A stretch of DNA of 37,689 nucleotides, from positions 1 through 37,689 of the IMG/VR virus record IMGVR_UViG_3300045970_001070. One strand, 5' to 3'. This stretch comes from a virus. This document shows, in pieces, positions 4,283 through 26,944 of the stretch (position 1 is its first letter; the number at the start of each line of letters is the position of its first letter). The notes beneath the pieces were generated by a model, which was given only the letters and a program-made list of their open reading frames with translations, was not told where the DNA came from and did no database searches. Position numbers and translations under genes: made by a program.

Positions 4283-5362
4283 TCAGGACGTATTACACTG
4301 CCTCTGGCAAGGCAAGGAGCGGAGATAGTCGAGCATCATGGCGCGGATATGCGGGGAGTCAGCTGAGGCCGAGGCCATACGGCCGATGAATTGGCCCCGG
4401 GCGTAGGCCTCCGCGGCAGCGAGTTCGGGCGGACCGACCTGGCCGACCAGATGGTCCCACTCCAGACGGGCCTGCATTTGCTCGTGATCGCGTCGGGCCT
4501 CTTCGGCCTGGCGCTCATCACGCCGGCGCTGATGGACTATCTCGCGCTCATTTTGCACCAGGGCGTCAGGTTGGACGGCCTGGTGCTCATGCACCAGGCC
4601 AACAGGTCGACCGTAACCGCCACTCAACACCGCGGTTACCAAAAATCCGGCCGGATTTGCAACCTGGGGGCGAAGGGGCAGGTCATCGAGTTCGCGCCGA
4701 GCCAGGCCTGGATCAACCTGGGCCAACCTCGCAGCCATTCGGGCATTCATGCCAGCGGCTTGCAAATCTCGGATCAGGTCGGCCTGGTCGTTCGGGATAG
4801 ATTCATTTCGAAAATCATCATCATTCCGAACCAGCTCTGAAGGCGCTGCTGTTGATGTTTCTTTAGAGTTTTCTTTAATGCTTTCTTTTAATATAGAGGG
4901 GGTCCCGTGGAGTGGACCCCCTCCCGTCCGGTGGAGTGGACGGGTCCCGTCCCGTGGAGTGGACCGTCCCGTGGAGCGGACGGGTCCCGTGGAGCGGACG
5001 GGTCCCGTGGAGCGGACGGGTCCCGTGGAGCGGACGGGTCCGCTGGGAGGTATCGGTTCTGGATCACTCTCAGGCTCCCGGATTTCGAGCAGGGCGGGTC
5101 CAAGCCTATACGCGCATACAGGGCCCGTGTTATCGACTTCGATCAGGTCCCTATCAGTTAGGCTTCTCTTGCTGTTGTAGAGGGTGGTCCGACCGAGGTT
5201 GGTCTGCTCCAGTAGCTCAGTTTCGCCTATGCATGCCCACTCGACGTGATATCCCTCGGTCTGGCGTATTATCCTCAGCAGCAGCTTCGCCTCTGCCGGA
5301 AGTAGCGTGTCCTCGATCTCCCAGTAGGTGTTTGGCACCTTCGTCCAGCTCGTCCGGCTCAT
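4283..5362 (-). CDS. replication initiator protein (lambda O / DnaD-like organisation)
   Basis: 359 residues. Residues about 15-85 form a winged-helix-like domain (LLPAEAKLLLRIIRQTEGYH ... LEQTNLGRTTLYNSKRSLTD), as in phage O-type or DnaD-like initiators that bind the origin and recruit the host helicase machinery. Residues 107-153 are a low-complexity stretch, including four GPVRST units, encoded by 18-bp DNA repeats. Residues 155-175 (ILKESIKENSKETSTA) are encoded by an AT-rich patch, and the C-terminal half is helical and charged. The start is the ATG overlapping the upstream stop as ATGA. Repeats inside the initiator gene next to AT-rich DNA strongly recall the lambda ori. Initiator role is inferred from fold pattern and context. 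Confidence 0.75.
   Translation of the reverse strand: MSRTSWTKVPNTYWEIEDTLLPAEAKLLLRIIRQTEGYHVEWACIGETELLEQTNLGRTTLYNSKRSLTDRDLIEVDNTGPVCAYRLGPALLEIREPESDPEPIPPSGPVRSTGPVRSTGPVRSTGPVRSTGRSTPRDGTRPLHRTGGGPLHGTPSILKESIKENSKETSTAAPSELVRNDDDFRNESIPNDQADLIRDLQAAGMNARMAARLAQVDPGLARRELDDLPLRPQVANPAGFLVTAVLSGGYGRPVGLVHEHQAVQPDALVQNEREIVHQRRRDERQAEEARRDHEQMQARLEWDHLVGQVGPPELAAAEAYARGQFIGRMASASADSPHIRAMMLDYLRSLPCQRQCNTS
4846..4897. other. AT-rich stretch, candidate DNA unwinding element
   Basis: A roughly 50-bp T/A-rich patch (with TTTAGAGTTTTCTTTAATG and TTTCTTTTAATATAG) immediately beside the 18-bp iterons and inside the initiator gene. It stands out from its GC-rich surroundings. In lambda and many iteron origins the AT-rich DNA unwinding element lies directly beside the initiator-binding repeats. 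Confidence 0.55.
4902..5037. repeat. seven 18-bp iterons, putative replication origin
   Basis: Tandem copies of GTCCCGTGGAGCGGACGG (+ strand). Four exact units run head to tail at 4966-4983, 4984-5001, 5002-5019 and 5020-5037. Three diverged units precede them at 4902-4919, 4926-4943 and 4949-4965 (17 nt); these share GTGGAGTGGAC in place of GTGGAGCGGAC. All lie inside the initiator gene and abut the AT-rich patch. The arrangement matches an iteron-type origin. The alternative is a simple coding minisatellite (GPVRST repeats). Confidence 0.7.
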
Positions 5363-6639
5363 GGGGCCTCCTCGCAGCCCCGGCGGAAGCACCCGCACTC
5401 GAGATCAAGCTGGTACCAGCAGGTATCCTCCTGGTCCGTGTGAGGGTAGCCGAATCCCACAGGACGCTCGCAATATGTGCAGTGGGCGTCCACGCATTCA
5501 AACAGGTGCTCGATTACTGCAAAAACCTCGTTTAGAGTAAGGGTCTTCGTCCGAATCAACCGGTCGGTCTCGGGCTGAGTTAGGCGCCCGTGCTGTCGTT
5601 CCGGGGCCAGATCAGGCTGACATATAGGCGACGCTTCTGGCGGGTCCACAAGCAGCATCTGCCCGGGGCAGTCCAGCGACGGGGCGGCAGGAGTTCCAGA
5701 TGGAGGTTTGGACCGGAGGTTTGCCCTGTAGGTTCCGTCTCCGACGGGAGTGAACACCACCCGGCGCCCACGTCCCTCTGTATTGTAGGCCTGCGCGCAA
5801 ATATAGAGGTCTTCTCTAGAATGCAGCTCGATTGTCCGGCGCTCAGACCCGTCCAAAAGGGTAGCCGTGTGGCCGTGGCTACTGGTCCCGTTCGTCATTG
5901 TGCCGACTACAGGCAGTAGCAGCTCAGTTGGGACCGTCGTGGGCCGAAAATCAGGAGGAAGTGCGGCCGTATAGGTGCCGTCTCCGACAGGAGTGAACCA
6001 CACTAACCTGCCTTTTCCGTCGGTCTGGATAGCCTTTATGCAGACCATCAGGTCATCATAGGACTGCAACTGGATCGTCCGGTCTCCTCGGGCGTAGGCC
6101 AGATGACCTTGTCCAGCCTTGGATGCACCAACGACGGGTAAGCGAAACGATCCACCCAGCAGCATTTTCTCCTCGGTCAGGGCCGCAGGCTTCTCCGGCC
6201 GATACTTCTCCGCCACGGCCGCCACGTGGGCACCGGTGACCTTGCCTCCAGGGGCGGTTTCCACGGCCTCGCGCCACGCCGGTGCCTGGTCGGCCTGGTC
6301 GAGCCTTGCCAAGGGGCGTACCTGGGCCTCATTGGTGGGCATGATGTCGGCAGTCGGGTCGCCGGCGATGGCGTTGGTCACCGTGGCCGCATCCATCAGC
6401 TCGTAGGAGCGGGTGCGGCTGATGCCCCAGCGTTCGCGGCAGTAAGCCTCAAACGTGCCGTAAGCCCGATACAGGCCCTGCTCGCGAATCTCTAGCAGGG
6501 CGTTGCCTACCTCCAGGAAGGAGCGTAGACCTCGCGCCACGGCTGACTCGAGGCAATCGAGGACCACCACCTCGGAGTCGCTGAGCGAATTGCATAAATC
6601 AATGAGGAGGGGGGGACCCTCCTTCAGTCCAGAACTCAT
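5359..6639 (-). CDS. phage protein with internal domain duplication and C-terminal zinc site
   Basis: 426 residues; ATG preceded by GGGAG and coupled (ATGA) to the zinc-finger gene upstream. Residues about 35-145 (FLEVGNALLEIREQGLYRAY ... FEAYCRERWGISRTRSYELM) match a domain common in phage and plasmid proteins near replication genes, of uncertain function. Residues 166-226 and 241-307 are two copies of one module, each ending FTPVGDGTY followed by a short AxL or AN strand. The C-terminus has CTYCERP and later CW...CGC...C, a probable zinc site. It lies directly upstream of the replication initiator, suggesting a role in DNA replication or its control. The duplicated module is not recognised. 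Confidence 0.7.
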   Translation of the reverse strand: MSSGLKEGPPLLIDLCNSLSDSEVVVLDCLESAVARGLRSFLEVGNALLEIREQGLYRAYGTFEAYCRERWGISRTRSYELMDAATVTNAIAGDPTADIMPTNEAQVRPLARLDQADQAPAWREAVETAPGGKVTGAHVAAVAEKYRPEKPAALTEEKMLLGGSFRLPVVGASKAGQGHLAYARGDRTIQLQSYDDLMVCIKAIQTDGKGRLVWFTPVGDGTYTAALPPDFRPTTVPTELLLPVVGTMTNGTSSHGHTATLLDGSERRTIELHSREDLYICAQAYNTEGRGRRVVFTPVGDGTYRANLRSKPPSGTPAAPSLDCPGQMLLVDPPEASPICQPDLAPERQHGRLTQPETDRLIRTKTLTLNEVFAVIEHLFECVDAHCTYCERPVGFGYPHTDQEDTCWYQLDLECGCFRRGCEEAP

Positions 6640-6902
6640 CGTTTTTTTCTCCCTACAATTGAAGTTTTGGCGCGCTTGGAGCGCGGATGGGCCCGCACCA
6701 GGTGCGGCGATAGGTGGTCGTTGCCGGAATGTCCGTCATCCCAGGCCGACCAGGTGCAGCCCCGTTGTGGACACTTCACCTGGCGTGGGGCATTGCCGGG
6801 CACCAACGGCGTCAGGCCAATGGTGCCGCAGTTCGTGCAGACGAGTATGCCGCGAGTGCGCTGGTAGATGCGGCCGCACTTGGCGCAGTAATAGCCGGAC
6901 AT
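6636..6902 (-). CDS. small zinc-finger protein
   Basis: 88 residues from ATG at 6902 (TGATG overlap with the preceding stop). An in-frame start at 7037 would overlap the upstream gene by 135 bp and is unlikely. The N-terminus has CAKC and CTNC (C-x2-C...C-x2-C zinc ribbon, residues about 6-27). Later CPQRGC, with HLSPHLVRAH after a spacer, gives a C2H2-like finger. The tail is basic (RSKRAKTSIVGRKKR). Two metal sites plus a basic tail suggest DNA binding within the early operon. Confidence 0.7.
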   Translation of the reverse strand: MSGYYCAKCGRIYQRTRGILVCTNCGTIGLTPLVPGNAPRQVKCPQRGCTWSAWDDGHSGNDHLSPHLVRAHPRSKRAKTSIVGRKKR

Positions 6903-7639
6903 CAGTAGCGCCCCTCGGTCTTCACGCAGTTGGCCTCGTCCAATCGCCGCGCGTGGGTCACGAGCGTGTCCAGTCGGTCCCGGAAGGCGCCCGAGGCCAG
7001 ACCGACTAGCTTGCTGGAGCCAAGAGTGCTGGAGCAACTGCGCAGGGCGCGGATGATGGCCCGGTAGGAGACTTTACGCACTACCTCGGTCCCTGGCCCG
7101 TCCCGCCGGCGACGCAGCGTACCCTCCCGGCCGGCATAGTCAAGGTCTAGCAGACGGGCGGCCGCGCGGATAGCCCGGACTCCGGCCTGGCTATAAGTCC
7201 CGAAGGCCCCCCGTACCACCCTTCTCCAGGCGGACTCGCCGCCGGCGTGGGCCTCCAGGTATAGGACGCAGGCCTGGCCCGCCTTGGTGAGGACGTGCTT
7301 GCCAGCGGCCTTCTCGACGAATCCCTCGTCGATCAGGCGCTTGATATGCCATCCGACGGCGGACCTGTGCTCGAATCCGAGCTCCTTTTGCAGTTGGCCG
7401 TGGCTGGACAGGGGGTGCTCCCCGAAGCGGATCAGGATGTGGGCCCTGGCCCGTTCAGAGCCCCGACTGTCCAAAACGTGTCGAGGTGCAACGTCGGTTT
7501 CATCGTAGTCCTGAGGCCGTGCTGTCCAATTCGAAACGGTCCGCCTCGGCGAAGCCCGGGTCGGGGCCATCGGAAGGTCGATTGCCACAAGCTCAGCAAG
7601 GGGGCTCTGAGGGGCTGAGACGAGGCGGACCTCAGGCAC
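6902..7639 (-). CDS. winged-helix DNA-binding protein
   Basis: 245 residues. Residues about 64-130 (RAHILIRFGEHPLSSHGQLQ ... HRSAVGWHIKRLIDEGFVEK) form a MarR/ArsR-type winged helix with a recognition helix and a wing ending KHVLTKAGQA. The C-terminal half is basic (GREGTLRRRRDGPG) and helical, with no recognised domain. Probably an early regulator or DNA-processing accessory protein. It overlaps the upstream XRE gene by 8 nt. Confidence 0.65.
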   Translation of the reverse strand: MPEVRLVSAPQSPLAELVAIDLPMAPTRASPRRTVSNWTARPQDYDETDVAPRHVLDSRGSERARAHILIRFGEHPLSSHGQLQKELGFEHRSAVGWHIKRLIDEGFVEKAAGKHVLTKAGQACVLYLEAHAGGESAWRRVVRGAFGTYSQAGVRAIRAAARLLDLDYAGREGTLRRRRDGPGTEVVRKVSYRAIIRALRSCSSTLGSSKLVGLASGAFRDRLDTLVTHARRLDEANCVKTEGRY

Positions 7640-11253: not shown

Positions 11254-12420
11254 ATGGATTTCATAGATCAGTTGCGAGCGATTGGCACACAGGTCGCCCG
11301 TATGAAGGAGACGGTTCAGACCGAGGAGGCGACGAAGCAAGCGTTTGTTCTGCCGTTCCTGAACGCTCTCGGATACAACGTATTCGACCCTACGGAGGTG
11401 GTTCCCGAGATGTGTGCGGACGTCGGCGTGAAGAAGGGAGAAAAGGTAGACTACGCCATAATGAAGGACGGCAAGCCAATCATTTTGATTGAGGCCAAGC
11501 ATTGGGGAGTCAACCTGAACAACATCACGCCAACGCAGCTTTACAGGTATTTTTCCGTCACGCAGGCCCGCATCGGCATCCTGACCAACGGAGTCATCTA
11601 CCGCTTCTTCAGTGACCTGGAAGAGTCAAACAAGATGGACCATAAACCGTTCCTAGAGTTCAATATTCTCGACATTTCAGAACCGATGGTCGCAGAGGTC
11701 AAGCGCATCACGAAAAGCAGCTTCCAGATTGAGGATGTCCTTAACTCCGCCATCGAACTGAAATATACCAAAGAAATTAAGCGCATCCTATCCGAGGAAC
11801 TGGCATCCCCCACCGAGGAGTTTGTCAAATTTTTTACCAGTCGGGTGCACACGGGCCGGATGACGCCGAGTGTTAAGCAGCATTTTACCGATTTAGTGAA
11901 GCGCGCTCTAAACCTGTTTATCAGTGAACGCTTGAGCGAGCGCCTAAAGACGGCACTGGCCCAAGAGAGCGGTGAATCCGCGATCATCTACGTCGATACA
12001 CTTCAGGAGTCAGGCGCCGCGCATACTGGGGATCCGGCAACAGAATCCAAGGGCAGGGAGGAGCGTATCACGACCACTCCCGAGGAGATGGAAGCGTTTT
12101 ACCTCGTCAAGTCTATACTTAGGTCAACGATTGACCCCAGTCGAATCCATCACCGGGACGCCATATCCTATTTTTCGATTTTACTGGACAACAACAACCG
12201 GAAAACCATCTGTCGTTTGTATCTGGACGGAGCGAAGAGATACATCGGCTTCATGGGTGATGGAAAAAAAGAAGAGAAAATCCAAATTCAAGACCTGAAC
12301 GACCTCTATCAGCACTCCGACAGGATACAGGGAGTCGTTGCTAGACTTGGTCAGCGGCCAATTTCTGAGCCTGGTGACAACCCTGCTGGTGATTTGGTTG
12401 AATCAGCCAACGCAAGTTAG
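11254..12420 (+). CDS. stand-alone type I restriction HsdR N-terminal-like nuclease-fold protein
   Basis: 388 residues; GGGAGG ribosome site 7 nt before the ATG. The N-terminal 120 residues match the HsdR-N-type PD-(D/E)xK domain: E24/E25 in the first helix, D66 in GEKVDYAI, then ILIEAKHW with E80 and K82, and QLYRYF downstream. No helicase or methylase follows, so it is not a complete type I enzyme. The central part is helical, and residues about 285-365 look like a second small alpha/beta domain. Such stand-alone proteins are common in prophages and may act in phage exclusion. It lies in an accessory block between switch and integrase and ends in a strong terminator, which fits a lysogenically expressed moron. 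Confidence 0.75.
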   Translation: MDFIDQLRAIGTQVARMKETVQTEEATKQAFVLPFLNALGYNVFDPTEVVPEMCADVGVKKGEKVDYAIMKDGKPIILIEAKHWGVNLNNITPTQLYRYFSVTQARIGILTNGVIYRFFSDLEESNKMDHKPFLEFNILDISEPMVAEVKRITKSSFQIEDVLNSAIELKYTKEIKRILSEELASPTEEFVKFFTSRVHTGRMTPSVKQHFTDLVKRALNLFISERLSERLKTALAQESGESAIIYVDTLQESGAAHTGDPATESKGREERITTTPEEMEAFYLVKSILRSTIDPSRIHHRDAISYFSILLDNNNRKTICRLYLDGAKRYIGFMGDGKKEEKIQIQDLNDLYQHSDRIQGVVARLGQRPISEPGDNPAGDLVESANAS

Positions 12421-12838: not shown

Positions 12839-13495
12839 ATGCCGACCACGCTAGCTGTCCTTGCGATGTTCTTGCCCGGATTCATTGCTATGGAAGTCAT
12901 ATACCACCTGGGCCCACGCAACTTCCGTTCAAACTCCGAGAGCTACAAATACGTTTTGGCCGTCCTTCTCGGTGCTATTGTTTTTGCCGTCACCACTGCC
13001 TTTTATGGCGAGAGTTTCAATGCGAGTTGGGACCAACTTACAGACGCCAAGCTCCTGACTAACAGACGCGTGCTGTGGACGGTCCTTGCAGCAATAGTCG
13101 TTGGCTGGGCCTGGCATACGTTTTTTACTCACGTCATGCCTGGATTTTACCGACTCTCGCGCGCAATCAAGCTTCAAATCTTCGGCACCAGCAGGCATTT
13201 CCACGGACCCATCAAGGTTTTTGACACGGCCATGGACCTCATGGACGACTGTATGGTGATGGTCTTTCTCAAAGATGGGCGAGTCTTGAAGGGCGGCCTG
13301 GTCGCCTATCCAGACCTCGACGGAGATAGCGGCTTGGTCGTGAGGGTCATTGCCTATGGCCATTTGCCTGACCCCAAGAAGAGTTGGACACCCGTGTTTG
13401 AGGCGGATCTGCCGACAACCCTGGAGTCGCTCATCTGGATTCCTGGTGGACAGATTGAGTATGTCAGTGCAGTCAAGGCTGTTGCCAGTCGGTAG
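12839..13495 (+). CDS. DUF6338-like membrane protein
   Basis: 218 residues; GGAGGTGAC immediately before the ATG is a near-perfect ribosome site. Three hydrophobic segments are visible at about residues 2-22 (TLAVLAMFLPGFIAMEVIY), 40-58 (VLAVLLGAIVFAVTTAFY) and 80-97 (WTVLAAIVVGWAWHTFF). The rest is a soluble C-terminal domain with beta strands (VMVFLKDGRVLKGGLVAYPD, PGGQIEYVSAVKA). The N-terminal FLPGF pattern and overall plan match the DUF6338 family as remembered. It sits in the accessory block upstream of the integrase. A membrane role in superinfection exclusion or defence is inference. Confidence 0.65.
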   Translation: MPTTLAVLAMFLPGFIAMEVIYHLGPRNFRSNSESYKYVLAVLLGAIVFAVTTAFYGESFNASWDQLTDAKLLTNRRVLWTVLAAIVVGWAWHTFFTHVMPGFYRLSRAIKLQIFGTSRHFHGPIKVFDTAMDLMDDCMVMVFLKDGRVLKGGLVAYPDLDGDSGLVVRVIAYGHLPDPKKSWTPVFEADLPTTLESLIWIPGGQIEYVSAVKAVASR

Positions 13496-13610: not shown

Positions 13611-14834
13611 ATGCCGGCACCCCGACACAACAAATACCAGGGCTTGTTTGAGTATCCAGATGGTCAATGGGGGATCGACTGTATCCTCTTCGGCAAGCGA
13701 GTGCGCCGCAAGATAGGGTCGGAGGCCCGGGCGCGCAAAGAATACCAGGACCTCAAGGCGGCCGAACGCCGGGGCGAGACAACGCTGCAGCCTCTGAAGC
13801 AGACCCGGCGCACGATCGGCGATTGGATTGACGTCTACCTGTCCATCCCGCGGGGCAAATCCGACGTCGCCTTTATGGAGATGTGGCGCGACCTGGTCGG
13901 GAACCGCTATCCGGAGCAGCTCAGCCAGGCTGAACTCAAGGCGTGGGCTCACGGGTTGCTGCAGGAGGGCAAGGCGGTAGCCTCCGTCCTACGCATCATG
14001 GGGCCGTTTCGTGCGTGCTACACCAAGATCGCCAAGAGCGGCGAGATCGCCTACCACCAGAACCCCTTCTGCGACATGGACGAATTGGAGCTGCCCAAGC
14101 TCAATAACAAGCGCGACGAATATGTGCACCTTGAATCGGTCTCGGATTTGGCCACGGCATTTGGTCCGACCTGGTGGCCCTACGCGGTTTTCGCGATCCT
14201 GGCACACATGCGGTTTGGGAACCAGCGCCGGCTGCGCTGGGATAACATCGATTGGACCAGCCAGATCGCCATTCTTGAAAAAACAAAAAAGGGAGTGAAG
14301 CATCACACCCCGTTATCTACCCTTGCGATAGATCTGCTGCGCGCGCAGCACGCGCGCCAGCTGGCCGAAGGGAAGCTATCCGAATGGTGCTGGCCAAACA
14401 GCAAAGGAGGACAGTTGGATAGCGCTCATTTCAGGCAGAACGTCTGGGCCCCGGCTTTTCGCAGGGCCGGGCTCAAACCCGCGGCGCCGGAGAAGGGTGA
14501 AGGCACGCGCAAGCGGCAAGGCCTGAGCTGGCATGACCTTTCGCGGCATACGGGGGCGACCTGGCTGGCCCAGGTCGGCACAGACCCGCTCGTGTTGCAG
14601 TCCCTGATGGACCATGGCGACCTGCGGACCACCGAGCGGTATCTCACCCACTGCCAAACCAGGAAGAAGGAGGGTGCCGAGCGCCTGGCCGAGCTGGCCC
14701 GGAAGGCCCTGCGGGGCGACGTCCCGGACAGCATGGGTGTCAGTAAAACGTCAGTAGCCGTTCCCAAATCTCAGGAAACGGATGCAATCGGACGTAGTCA
14801 ACATGGCGTAACGGTGAGGTTTTCCCAGAACTAA
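13611..14834 (+). CDS. int: tyrosine-family phage integrase
   Basis: 407 residues; GGAGGAGG ribosome site about 5 nt before the ATG. Residues about 8-52 (GLFEYPDGQWGIDCILFGKR) form an AP2-like arm-DNA-binding domain. A SAM-like core-binding domain follows at about 65-165. The catalytic domain shows R201 (MRFGNQ), H308 and R312 (HDLSRH), H335 (MDHGD) and Y344 (RYLTH), so the R-H-R-H-Y set is intact. It catalyses site-specific recombination between attP and a host tRNA-Ala gene. attP begins about 24 bp past the stop, and two arm-type repeats lie inside the last 100 bp of the gene. Confidence 0.95.
   Translation: MPAPRHNKYQGLFEYPDGQWGIDCILFGKRVRRKIGSEARARKEYQDLKAAERRGETTLQPLKQTRRTIGDWIDVYLSIPRGKSDVAFMEMWRDLVGNRYPEQLSQAELKAWAHGLLQEGKAVASVLRIMGPFRACYTKIAKSGEIAYHQNPFCDMDELELPKLNNKRDEYVHLESVSDLATAFGPTWWPYAVFAILAHMRFGNQRRLRWDNIDWTSQIAILEKTKKGVKHHTPLSTLAIDLLRAQHARQLAEGKLSEWCWPNSKGGQLDSAHFRQNVWAPAFRRAGLKPAAPEKGEGTRKRQGLSWHDLSRHTGATWLAQVGTDPLVLQSLMDHGDLRTTERYLTHCQTRKKEGAERLAELARKALRGDVPDSMGVSKTSVAVPKSQETDAIGRSQHGVTVRFSQN
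14739..14757 (+). promoter_or_regulatory. arm-type integrase sites, left pair
   Basis: Two copies of GTCAGTA at 14739 and 14750, 11 bp apart, inside the 3' end of the integrase gene. GTCAGTAAAACGTCAGTAG matches 14982-15000 at 18 of 19 positions, and 22 of 24 if extended. The placement on one side of the attP core is as expected for integrase arm sites. Confidence 0.65.
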
Positions 14835-17282: not shown

Positions 17283-17414
17283 TCATTGGTAGTTGCCGTC
17301 GATGTCCCCCACGCTCAAGGCGGGGTAGTTGCCGTCGATGTCCTCTGCGCTCACGAAGTCGATGTCTCCAGCGCTCACGAAGGGGTAGTTGCCATCGATG
17401 TCTCCAGCGCTCAT
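17283..17414 (-). CDS. 43-residue repeat protein (DIDGNY repeats)
   Basis: ATG overlaps the upstream stop as ATGA. The protein is almost wholly four repeats of S-A/V-G/E-D-I-D-G-N-Y-P (MSAGDIDGNYPFVSAGDID, then FVSAEDIDGNY, then ALSVGDIDGNYQ); one unit lacks GNYP. Acidic, without TM segment. The Trp/Arg-rich frame overlapping it (17242-17430) is a shadow. Function unknown. The translational coupling to a beta-rich protein gene suggests a small virion-associated or tail-appended peptide. Confidence 0.6.
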   Translation of the reverse strand: MSAGDIDGNYPFVSAGDIDFVSAEDIDGNYPALSVGDIDGNYQ

Positions 17415-23094: not shown

Positions 23095-23351
23095 CTGCGG
23101 TGCTCCAGTCTTAGCTCACGGTGCTCCAGTCTTAGCTCACACATATAGTCCACTCCAAACTCTTGAAACCAGCCCTGCCTGATCAGCGGCCAATGGGTGC
23201 GCTGCGCGAGCCTCATGGCCACTGGGCAGAGCCGGAGAACAATCAACTCCACGCGTGGCCACTCGAACGAGGCGGGCAGGCGCAGGAGCTCTGTGAGGAA
23301 TTGTAGGTCGGAGTAGTCATCCGACTTGGGGCACAGCGAGAATAGCTTCAA
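23091..23351 (-). CDS. small tail-region protein with repeated C-terminus
   Basis: 86 residues, TTG start overlapping the tape measure stop as TTGA. It is Leu/Arg-rich (ELLRLPASFEWPRVELIVLR) and ends in a duplicated ELRLEHR, encoded by a 21-bp perfect tandem repeat. No family recognised. It directly follows the tape measure gene, where small distal-tail proteins are common. Confidence 0.55.
   Translation of the reverse strand: MKLFSLCPKSDDYSDLQFLTELLRLPASFEWPRVELIVLRLCPVAMRLAQRTHWPLIRQGWFQEFGVDYMCELRLEHRELRLEHRR
23098..23139. repeat. 21-bp perfect tandem duplication
   Basis: CGGTGCTCCAGTCTTAGCTCA occurs twice head to tail (23098-23118, 23119-23139) in the 3' end of a tail-region gene. It adds seven residues in frame. 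The identity of the two copies suggests a recent duplication or an assembly artefact. Confidence 0.85.
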
Positions 23352-26300
23352 GAGTTTTCTGTCTTGTTAGTGCTGGTGCGCCAGTCAGGCTGCGCGGTGG
23401 AGGGCCCGCCGCCGGCGTTGCTCACCTGGACCTTGACCGGCTCTTTCTGGGCAGCCACAATCTGCTGCAGCAGCTGGGTCTGTAGCGCCGACTGGGCGGC
23501 GATGTCCTGGAGGGCCTTGGCGTTGAGTTCCGCGTCCGGCGGCGCACCGCCCGGCTTATCGGCATCCTTACCAGCGGGCTTTTTATCGGCGCCTGCGTCC
23601 GCCTGTTCCTGGCCCGGATAAGACCCGGAATCCTTCTTGTCTTTCTTGGGTTTGCCATCCTTACCCAGAGCGTTGGTCGCGTCGCGTTTGGCCTTGGCCT
23701 GGTCGTCCTTCACATCCTTGAGCGTGTTCTTGGCGGTAAGGTCGAAAGCGCTAAAGTCACCGGCACCTTCCACCCCGCTCATGCCGCCCAGGGAGAAGTC
23801 GCTCTTCTTGGCGTCCGCGAGTTCTTTCTGCTTTTTCAGTTCCTCGGTCAGCGCGCGCTGCTCTTCGACCTGCTTTTGCGTGAGCTCCGACATGTCGAGT
23901 TCGAGGTCTCGGCGGATACGGGCTTTCTCGTTGCCACTTGCTCCGATTTCATTCGCGCTGGCTTTGGCAACCAGGGCGTCGCGCTCGGACTGCTGGCGCT
24001 GGTCCATCAGTTGCTTCAGGCGAGACTCCACCTTCTCGCCGGCCTCGGCCCGCTTGCGCAGGGAGTTCTCCTCCAGCTGCTGGCCCCGCACGGTCTCGTC
24101 TTTCTTGAGCGCGTCCTCGTCCGCCCGGCGCTTGGCGGCCTGCTCTTCAAGTTTTTTGGACTCCATCGCGCTCTTGGAGCGGGCAGCTGCGTTTTCCGCG
24201 TCGGCTGCCTTGTTGAGAGCCGCGCGAGCCTGGGCGCCTTTTCCTATCCCCTCTTGGGCGGCCTTCTCTGTGGTGACCGCTGCGGCCAGGTCGTCGCGGG
24301 CCTTGATTTCCTGCTTAAGCTGTTCGAGCACGTCCTCGCCGCTGGCGAATTTGTCTTTGGTAACTTCCAGCGCACTCTGAGCAGCGGTCAATTCTGAGGC
24401 CGCGAGTTTTTCTCGCACCTTGGCCGTTTCTTTGAGGGCGTCTTGCTTGAGCTGCTCCACGTCCCGGGCAGACTTCTTGGCCTCGGTGGCGTTCTGGCTC
24501 TCGGCTGCCTTGATAATCTGGGCCCTAGTTGCGGCGGATTTTCCCAGGCTTTCCTGTTCGGCTTTCTCCAGCCGGATTTTGGCTACCAGTTGGTCGCGTA
24601 ACTGAATCTGCTCCTGGACCTGGGCGACTGTCGCTTTGCCCTGCTTGAATTGCTCCCGGACCGCACTGATAGCCTCGTCCGCTCCCTTGGCCTCTTCGTC
24701 GCGCGCCTTGAGTCGGGCGTCCTCGGTTTCCTTGGCGGCATCACGCCGAATCTGCTCCACGTCGCGGGCAGACTTTTTGGCCTCGGTCGCATTCTCGGTC
24801 TCGGCGGCCTTGAGGATCTGGGCCCTGGCTGCGGCGGATTTGCCCAGGCTATCCTGCTCAGCTTTCTCCATGCGGATTTTGGCCACCAGCTGATCGCGCA
24901 GATGGATCTGCTCTTCGACCTGAGCGACCGTGGCCTTGCCCTGCTTAAATTGCTCCCGGACCGCATTGACGGCGTCATCTGCCCCTTTGGCCTGTTGGTC
25001 GCGCACCTTGAGCTGCGCGTCGCCCTCTTCTTTGGAGACATCTCGCGCCAGCTTGATTCGCTTGTCGATGAGTTCGGCGTATTCTTTATGCTGTTTCCCA
25101 ATGCGCGCTGTGACCTGGTCGAGCGCAGCCAGTTCCTCGCTGTTATTGGCAAAGACCCCGCGGGAGCTTTTCTCTTTGTAGCGCTTGAGAAGTGCCTCTG
25201 CTTCACCCTGCTCTTTCTTGGTGGCGGCAGACTTATCGGCCGCCGCCTTCATTTCCGCATCGTGCATGCCGCGGAACTCGACGCGGGCCTTGGCCAGCAC
25301 TTCATTCCGTTTCTCATACTCGGCGATCTGTGCCGCGACGATGGCCTTTTGTTCGTCGTTCCCGCTGGTCAGGTTGAGCCGGCGCTGCTGCTCTCGCAGG
25401 TTTTTGAGGATCTCCCCATTTCCGGCCATGGCGTGCGTGATGTCAAGATCGTCTTTGCCCAGTTTATGGAGGGCGGCTGCCACCTGATCAGCGGCTTTTT
25501 CGGTGTCGTCGCCCCACTTCTTGACGGCCTCGGCTGCCTCAAGCGTGATGGACTTTTCTTTGTGCAGCTGGAGGACTTGGCGCTGGGAGACTTCCAGGGC
25601 CTTCTCTTGCTCTGCGGTGCAGCTCTCCAGATAGGCAGTGTAGCCGGCCAGGGCCAGGGCGACTGCCCCCAGCAGGATAATGAGCGGACCAAGCCCGGTG
25701 GTGGCCATCGCTCCGATTTTTCCCAGCAGTCCGGTGCTTGCAGCGGTCTGCTGGCCCTGAGCGACGATAACGGCCTCGGAGCTGCCAGCATATTGCAGGT
25801 TGGCAGCCGTGGCTGCTTCGGTAGCTGCAGCCAGTTCCGTTTCGGCGATAGCCAGGCCTTCTGAGGCGATGATGCCTTCGGCCTTGGTGCCTGCATTTAG
25901 TACGGCCGCCTGCGCCTCGGCCACCAGCGCTTCGGCCGCGACTACTTCGGCGGCAGTTTGCTCCACCAGGCTCATCGTGGCCGCGTGATTGGCGACCGCG
26001 TTTGTGAGCGAGGTCGCCGCGGCCGCCGCGGCACTGGCCGTGTAGGCCGCCCACATCATCGAAGCCGGCAGATAAACCGCGGTCATCGCAGCGCCCGCTG
26101 CAGCCATCCCGGTGATGACCGTGCCGGCCAAAATACCCGTGGTAATCAGACCGCGCATGCCCGGGTCCATGTCTTTTACGCAATTGAGCAGGCCGGTCAG
26201 AGCTTCAGACCCGCTCTTGACCGTCGGAGTGAGGTTCTGGCCCAGTGCGGCCTGGGCCTGGCCAAACGCATCTCCCAGGGACGACAGGGACGCTTCGAGC

Positions 26301-26944
26301 GTCTTGCTCTGCTCTGCCATCACGCCGCCGAACTTAGTGTCGGCCATTTTCGTGAGGGCGTCGCGGAGTTTTTCCACGGCCGCTTCGCCTTCAACTGCGA
26401 TGGCGCCGTTCGACTCAAGCTCTGCGCCGAACTTATGCAGCTCGTCCTTTGTGGTGACGCCGGCGTCGAAGAGACTCTGTAGTCCGTCGCGGGAACCCTT
26501 TAACGATTTGCCCCAGATGAGGGCCGCTTCGGACAGGTCGCGCCTCATGACCGAGGCCAGGTTGCCCACCCGCGGCAGTTGGGCCGAGACGTCTTGCCCC
26601 AGACCCGTGAGAACCGTGCCCGCCTGGACCACGCCTGGGAGGTCGAACGGCGTCTTGGCCGCAAAGTCGGCCATCTCCTGAAGTTTTTGGCGAGCCAACC
26701 CGGCGTTGCCCGTGAGCCCGGTTAGCTGGGCCTCAAAGCTCTGCATCTCCGAGGCTTTAGACACAAACCCGGCCAGCAGGGCACCGCCGGCGGCCGAGAT
26801 GGCTCCGAGCGCGAGGGCGGCTTGTTGGCTTTTGGAGACAAGTTGCCCGACCGTGTCGTCGACCGACTTTTCGACTTCTTTAAGGGTTTGGTTCAGTTGC
26901 CGAGCGTCGCCGGAAACCAGAATTTCGAGTCGGTTAGAGGCCAA
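23348..26944 (-). CDS. tail tape measure protein
   Basis: 1198 residues, TTG start. The N-terminal 240 residues match TP901-type tape measure proteins (QSFEAQLTGLTGNAGLARQK, FAAKTPFDLPGVVQAGTVLT, SVMRRDLSEAALIWGKSLKG). Hydrophobic segments lie at about 270-310 and 415-435 (GPLIILLGAVALALAGY). A long charged helical region contains three units of about 100 residues. Tape measure length sets tail length; at about 0.15 nm per residue this predicts a tail near 180 nm, so siphovirus morphology. It follows the tail tube and a chaperone-position gene. Confidence 0.95.
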   Translation of the reverse strand: MASNRLEILVSGDARQLNQTLKEVEKSVDDTVGQLVSKSQQAALALGAISAAGGALLAGFVSKASEMQSFEAQLTGLTGNAGLARQKLQEMADFAAKTPFDLPGVVQAGTVLTGLGQDVSAQLPRVGNLASVMRRDLSEAALIWGKSLKGSRDGLQSLFDAGVTTKDELHKFGAELESNGAIAVEGEAAVEKLRDALTKMADTKFGGVMAEQSKTLEASLSSLGDAFGQAQAALGQNLTPTVKSGSEALTGLLNCVKDMDPGMRGLITTGILAGTVITGMAAAGAAMTAVYLPASMMWAAYTASAAAAAATSLTNAVANHAATMSLVEQTAAEVVAAEALVAEAQAAVLNAGTKAEGIIASEGLAIAETELAAATEAATAANLQYAGSSEAVIVAQGQQTAASTGLLGKIGAMATTGLGPLIILLGAVALALAGYTAYLESCTAEQEKALEVSQRQVLQLHKEKSITLEAAEAVKKWGDDTEKAADQVAAALHKLGKDDLDITHAMAGNGEILKNLREQQRRLNLTSGNDEQKAIVAAQIAEYEKRNEVLAKARVEFRGMHDAEMKAAADKSAATKKEQGEAEALLKRYKEKSSRGVFANNSEELAALDQVTARIGKQHKEYAELIDKRIKLARDVSKEEGDAQLKVRDQQAKGADDAVNAVREQFKQGKATVAQVEEQIHLRDQLVAKIRMEKAEQDSLGKSAAARAQILKAAETENATEAKKSARDVEQIRRDAAKETEDARLKARDEEAKGADEAISAVREQFKQGKATVAQVQEQIQLRDQLVAKIRLEKAEQESLGKSAATRAQIIKAAESQNATEAKKSARDVEQLKQDALKETAKVREKLAASELTAAQSALEVTKDKFASGEDVLEQLKQEIKARDDLAAAVTTEKAAQEGIGKGAQARAALNKAADAENAAARSKSAMESKKLEEQAAKRRADEDALKKDETVRGQQLEENSLRKRAEAGEKVESRLKQLMDQRQQSERDALVAKASANEIGASGNEKARIRRDLELDMSELTQKQVEEQRALTEELKKQKELADAKKSDFSLGGMSGVEGAGDFSAFDLTAKNTLKDVKDDQAKAKRDATNALGKDGKPKKDKKDSGSYPGQEQADAGADKKPAGKDADKPGGAPPDAELNAKALQDIAAQSALQTQLLQQIVAAQKEPVKVQVSNAGGGPSTAQPDWRTSTNKTENS
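24141..25040. repeat. 300-bp tandem repeats in the tape measure gene
   Basis: Three 100-codon units: 24741-25040 and 24441-24740 are closely similar (both encode AVREQFKQGKATVAQV, LRDQLVAKIR and ATEAKKSARDVEQ) at an exact 300-bp period. 24141-24440 is a diverged third copy (KETAKVREKLAASE). Each unit would change tail length by about 15 nm. Confidence 0.8.

Follow-up and report, generated by a model that had tools for sequence, protein, structure and literature searches.

A putative lambda-type replication origin within the O-like initiator gene of a GC-rich temperate phage

Introduction

The replication origin of bacteriophage lambda lies in the middle of gene O, where unwinding needs no more than two iterons plus the AT-rich region, and replication in vitro no more than the two iterons nearest to that region (PMC7466680). 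Dimers of O bind each iteron, giving rise to a nucleoprotein complex (PMC7466680; PMC3985674). In the six-iteron origins of some lambdoid phages (Stx-type), O binds well in vitro only to the AT-proximal four (PMC7466680).

Here, we analyze IMG/VR record IMGVR_UViG_3300045970_001070, a virus sequence of 37,689 bases (the whole of which is referred to hereafter as the window), for which an earlier note had proposed a lambda-like origin inside the initiator gene. That proposal holds on every point open to a sequence test (an O-like protein, dyad iterons and an AT-rich tract), and we infer, with a probability of about 0.88, that the iteron array and the adjoining tract constitute the replication origin of this phage, of the lambda (O) type. 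This is clearly a new example of a known arrangement, that of an origin inside an initiator gene, to which we add a frame-free test and a spacing common to the 3′ ends of such arrays.

Results

An O-like initiator in a temperate phage

Around 10.4 kb the window has a divergent repressor region, an integrase is encoded at 13611–14834, and the structural genes lie on the minus strand, so that the virus is, by its gene content, a temperate phage or prophage. The initiator gene (Table 1) is read here from an ATG at 5362 that overlaps the stop of the gene upstream (ATGA), in place of the GTG at 5398 chosen in the open reading frame list, which we rejected. The upstream gene (5359–6639, minus strand) itself contains two diverged copies of one stretch, including 33-bp repeats at 5723 and 5966 that are 88% identical.

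Table 1. Features of the initiator gene and the putative origin (window coordinates; DUE, DNA unwinding element; spacings in bp to the next copy).
Feature	Position	Strand	Remarks
O-like replication initiator gene, 359 aa, containing the putative origin	4283..5362	-	PF04492, phrog_678 and TIGR01610 matches
N-terminal winged-helix DNA-binding domain (about residues 5–92)	5087..5350	-	model pLDDT mostly >90
Predicted disordered linker (about residues 96–187), carrying iterons and AT-rich tract	4802..5077	-	from pLDDT
Iteron 1 (DUE-distal)	5020..5037	-	codon phase 1, encodes PVRST
Iteron 2	5002..5019	-	codon phase 1
Iteron 3	4984..5001	-	codon phase 1
Iteron 4	4966..4983	-	codon phase 1
Iteron 5 (core triad)	4949..4966	-	codon phase 0, encodes RSTPRD; 23 to next
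Iteron 6 (core triad)	4926..4943	-	codon phase 2, encodes PLHRT; dyad CCCGTCC-N8-GGACGGG; 24 to next
Iteron 7 (DUE-proximal)	4902..4919	-	codon phase 2, encodes PLHGT; dyad GGGGGTCC-N8-GGACCCCC
AT-rich tract, three imperfect AAAGAAA-type subrepeats	4853..4897	-	encodes SILKESIKENSKETS; 78% A+T

The N-terminal part of the initiator is matched by PF04492 (Phage_rep_O) at E = 4e-4 (21.3 bits, curated cut-off 28.7; E = 1.6e-6 for the initiator at genome scale), while TIGR01610 gives E = 3e-3 (18.1 bits, curated cut-off 45.5) and phrog_678 (“replication initiation O-like”) E = 1e-4. We regard the protein as a distant member of the O family, on profile scores that lie under the curated cut-offs where such exist; its similarity to lambda O itself is weak and at the profile level only. 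When compared with predicted viral structures (BFVD), the winged-helix model has as its top match “Bacteriophage lambda, GpO, N-terminal” (E = 5.7e-8). Matches in the PDB are weak (E about 0.01–0.03, none at E ≤ 0.001) and of the kind that any winged helix would give; they include the RepA-type initiators 5kbj, 4pql and 4pt7 and DnaD (2v79). The predicted fold of this domain is hence in agreement with the gpO N-terminal domain and with initiator winged helices. In the same model, the linker has pLDDT <50 at residues 96–101 and 110–187, and the C-terminal part is helical.

In lambda, gene O is followed immediately by gene P. Here, profile scans of neighboring early operon genes recognized nothing resembling P, DnaC or a helicase; several of the neighbors encode proteins of no recognized function, and a diverged helicase loader could be among them. 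Close relatives of the initiator were found neither by tblastn (the initiator in phages, its N-terminal 141 residues in plasmids) nor in an IMG/VR peptide scan or a full-length, uncontrolled search of 395 genomes from one phylum. Among 39 records of TerL relatives none held an O-like gene, and the modules are therefore mosaic.

A dyad iteron array abuts an AT-rich tract

Seven 18-bp repeats, recovered by unsupervised repeat search and by pattern search, occupy 4902–5037 on the minus strand of the initiator gene (residues 109–154 of 359, between the winged helix and the C-terminal part). Each matches GTCCRCTCCACGGGAC with zero or one mismatch, and the rest of the window contains no such match; relaxing the search to three mismatches gave seven matches in 37.7 kb (shuffles, mean 1.1, maximum 4). 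The unit has dyad symmetry (CGTCC, 8 bp, GGACG), which is clearest in copies 6 and 7, the two nearest the AT tract. These have longer dyad arms that differ in sequence from one copy to the other, so that the dyad is kept even though the bases flanking it vary. Read from gene 5′ to 3′, the iteron spacings are 18, 18, 18, 17, 23 and 24 bp.

The earlier note had described four exact and three diverged copies. Its count was right, but it underrated the last three, two of which match the core perfectly (with A, not G, at the R position). As spacings of 21–24 bp at the 3′ end are common to O-like genes and lambda (see below), the copies called diverged would in fact be the core iterons, with lambda spacing, and a later in-frame expansion of the array best accounts for the four identical distal copies. 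Phage, plasmid and IMG/VR searches yielded no relative sharing the 18-bp unit of this phage; the exact 16-bp unit had only 14 matches in IMG/VR, all single and in unrelated genes, which we read as chance and rejected as relatives. Single-strand folding of the array is not exceptional (z −1.3).

The AT-rich patch that had been noted beside the iterons was borne out as a 45-bp tract that begins 4 bp beyond the last iteron (on the coding strand), with an A+T content twice that of the gene (39%). None of 200 synonymous shuffles, in which protein and codon usage were kept, attained this content; the tract is thus AT-rich beyond the needs of its amino acids. TRF reports a period of 12 (2.6 copies) within it. 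Judged by composition and position, the tract is likely to be the DNA unwinding element. GC skew is flat, with no switch, and uninformative on the origin.

Comparison with lambda and Stx-type origins

Both lambda (iterons at 39034–39118 of NC_001416) and this phage place dyad 18-bp iterons between the winged helix and the C-terminal part of the initiator, in three codon phases, with an AT-rich tract directly 3′ (76% A+T in 45 bp for lambda, 78% in 45 bp here). The last spacings are 24 and 23 bp in lambda and 23 and 24 bp in this phage. The two differ in copy number (four iterons in lambda, seven here) and in the unit itself: that of lambda, ATCCCTCAAAACGAGGGA, has an A-rich core, whereas ours is GC-rich and lacks the A-rich core common to most relatives. 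Six-iteron Stx-type origins resemble the present one in having extra AT-distal iterons, there beyond a four-iteron core, and a lengthened O linker; they have, however, a lambda-type unit and a lambda-type O protein, whereas the extra copies here form an exact array of 18-bp pitch.

The repeats ignore reading frame

The copies in the array occupy three codon phases, read as PVRST, RSTPRD and PLHRT–PLHGT. To score this property, we counted pairs of 12-mers (≤1 mismatch) lying in different frames and compared the totals with those from synonymous-codon shuffles. The initiator gene contains 113 such pairs (500 shuffles, mean 1.6, maximum 14) and lambda gene O contains 14 (mean 0.65, maximum 6), while 18 control genes (17 from the window, plus lambda P) have 0–6. 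The gene for a winged-helix-like protein at 6902–7639 (minus strand) is slightly raised, at 6 pairs (shuffle mean 0.55, maximum 3). By this measure, the repeats appear to be selected as DNA and not as peptide. The suggestion that the GPVRST peptide is a by-product of selection on DNA is supported, because copies in the three frames encode three different peptides.

A coding tandem repeat could also scatter its frames neutrally, through polymerase slippage in a disordered linker followed by indels, with no selection on DNA; the four distal copies, which share one sequence and one frame, and the predicted disorder of the linker both fit this reading. Because such indels could shift frames in this phage alone, evidence from distant relatives was needed.

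Distant O-like genes share the arrangement

A first, two-part winged-helix pattern had no matches; a second, degenerate winged-helix DNA pattern, followed by profile search, identified distant O-like genes, both in IMG/VR and among genomes from several phyla. In a set of 31 genes that includes the one studied here, 22 exceed all 30 of their synonymous shuffles in out-of-frame repeats. The nine not clearly above this null comprise two truncated at contig ends (L111, L119), the six weakest profile matches of the set (L136–L139, L142, L143) and one genuine O-like gene that has no multi-frame array (L124). Four replication proteins of Gram-positive phages, which are related in the C-terminal part but have another N-terminal domain, and for which we do not claim a multi-frame rule, gave no out-of-frame excess in KC5a and BpsM61, a non-significant 9 pairs in PVJ1 (shuffle maximum 13) and a slight excess, from a low-complexity repeat, in BtpYZU03 (8 pairs, maximum 6).

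Unsupervised motif search in 18 genes of the set returned mostly dyad units, in two or three frames, positioned after the winged helix. The units are unrelated in sequence between groups, yet occupy the same place in O-like genes. The L108 gene, for instance, has eight copies of approximately GGGTCAAAAATTGACCC in phases 0, 2, 1, 0, 2, 1, 0, 2, read as GSSLDP, GQSLTP and GVKNYP, and in one distant-relative gene GGGTCAAAAATTGACCC is read as GSKIDP, GQKLTP and GVKNCP. A peptide conserved over a changing DNA unit, which the earlier note had named as an outcome that would count against it, is the opposite of what these distant relatives display, in that the DNA is kept across frames. In the close pair L118/L121, iteron DNA is 98% identical, inter-iteron DNA 70% and the rest of the gene 80–82%. 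Iterons are again the most conserved part in L118/L108, L121/L108 (both by a smaller margin) and L110/L125; in L104/L103 they are not.

Adding the annotated iterons of lambda to these 18 genes (19 genes in total) reveals a common geometry. The two spacings at the 3′ end are 21–24 bp in 36 of 38 cases, as against 10 of 47 for other spacings (Fisher p-value 1.5e-12, a figure that overstates independence because trailing matches outside the array were trimmed by hand in L110 and L141 and several of the genes are mutually related). With a pitch of ~23 bp, successive copies consequently fall in different frames. Eight genes (L108, L118, L121, L133, L134, L135, L140 and L141) are like that of this phage in having a winged helix, a linker of multi-frame dyad repeats, 3′-end spacings of 22–24 bp, and an AT-rich stretch that overlaps the 3′ part of the array or lies within ~50 bp of it; they are unlike it in their unrelated units and different C-terminal parts. 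Over the wider set, the position of the AT-rich stretch is less regular than iteron spacing: in this phage, lambda, L107, L126 and L140 the stretch richest in A+T immediately follows the array on its 3′ side, in L108, L118 and L121 it overlaps the 3′ end of the array, and in several AT-rich genes it is found elsewhere.

Neutral slippage leaves unexplained the recurrence of multi-frame repeats, built from unrelated units, at the same place in O-like genes; the 23/24-bp spacing that recurs in lambda and the distant relatives; the presence of a dyad in every core copy; and an AT-rich tract beyond the synonymous null. We consider it very unlikely.

Short subrepeats, of the ACAAAAGA or TAAAGAAA kind, are shared by the post-iteron AT-rich tracts of this phage (4853–4897) and of L144, L105, L106, L133, L134 and L140, and the peptides they encode are of the KDT/KEN type in relatives as well as in lambda O; these subrepeats may represent a second conserved element at the DNA level.

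Discussion

The features above can be assembled into a scheme for initiation by lambda-type logic. The N-terminal winged helix, probably as a dimer, would bind each 18-bp dyad iteron, and the complex formed on the three AT-proximal copies (23 and 24 bp apart) would strain and melt the 45-bp tract. The C-terminal helical part would then recruit the host replicative helicase, either directly or via a loader. The four upstream copies, at 18-bp pitch, would be an in-frame expansion providing extra binding sites, and the encoded peptide a disordered linker able to accommodate any residues that the DNA happens to specify.

Repeats located within the gene for a DNA-binding protein would equally give autoregulation, with the initiator or a repressor binding the array as an operator or silencer of the early operon rather than starting replication. 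One study of lambda provides a precedent, in that O overproduction lowered readthrough transcription from pR (PMC3985674). We found no promoter-like site beside the array, however, and the AT-rich tract and O-family protein point to an origin; we rate a purely regulatory array lower still than neutral slippage, although a regulatory side effect of the initiator may exist alongside the origin role. Least credible is a centromere (parS-like) array for plasmid-type partition of the prophage, given that, while direct repeat arrays do form partition sites and the winged-helix protein TubR is among the structure matches, the phage has an integrase gene, no ParA/ParM/TubZ-type gene was seen among the proteins scanned, and the array sits in an O-like gene beside an AT-rich tract.

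Taking the array and tract as an origin, the comparison with distant genes suggests a rule for O-type initiators that we favor with some reservation: the linker carries the origin DNA, the iteron sequence drifts with the initiator while the geometry stays fixed, and reading frame is ignored, making the peptides by-products. The fixed geometry, so read, would be the three 3′-most iterons at 21–24 bp pitch and then an AT-rich tract. We found no description of a multi-frame or spacing rule in the literature covered, which omits most subscription journals. If the rule is true, origins of this type could be read from sequence alone, with out-of-frame repeats as their signature.

On the present evidence, the lambda-type origin would extend to a GC-rich phage for which the collections searched yielded no close relative, and in which the lambda-like geometry is carried by the copies nearest the AT tract, not by the most perfect ones. 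Counting out-of-frame repeats against synonymous shuffles offers a simple sequence test for origins inside initiator genes, and one that recovers lambda's own. Odd peptide repeats of the GPVRST kind in phage replication proteins may accordingly be viewed as the shadow of origin DNA.

Elsewhere in the window, the region between repressor and integrase encodes a protein of only 388 residues with a type I restriction HsdR N-terminal domain (11254–12420, plus strand; PF04313, E = 4e-15), possibly a nuclease-only prophage cargo or defense gene, and this is followed by a DUF6338 protein (12839–13495). Further repeats comprise a 60-bp repeat of 1.9 copies (17298–17413), a perfect 21-bp tandem duplication (23098–23140) and an imperfect 300-bp tandem duplication (83%; 24452–25012) within a tape-measure-like gene (23348–26944).
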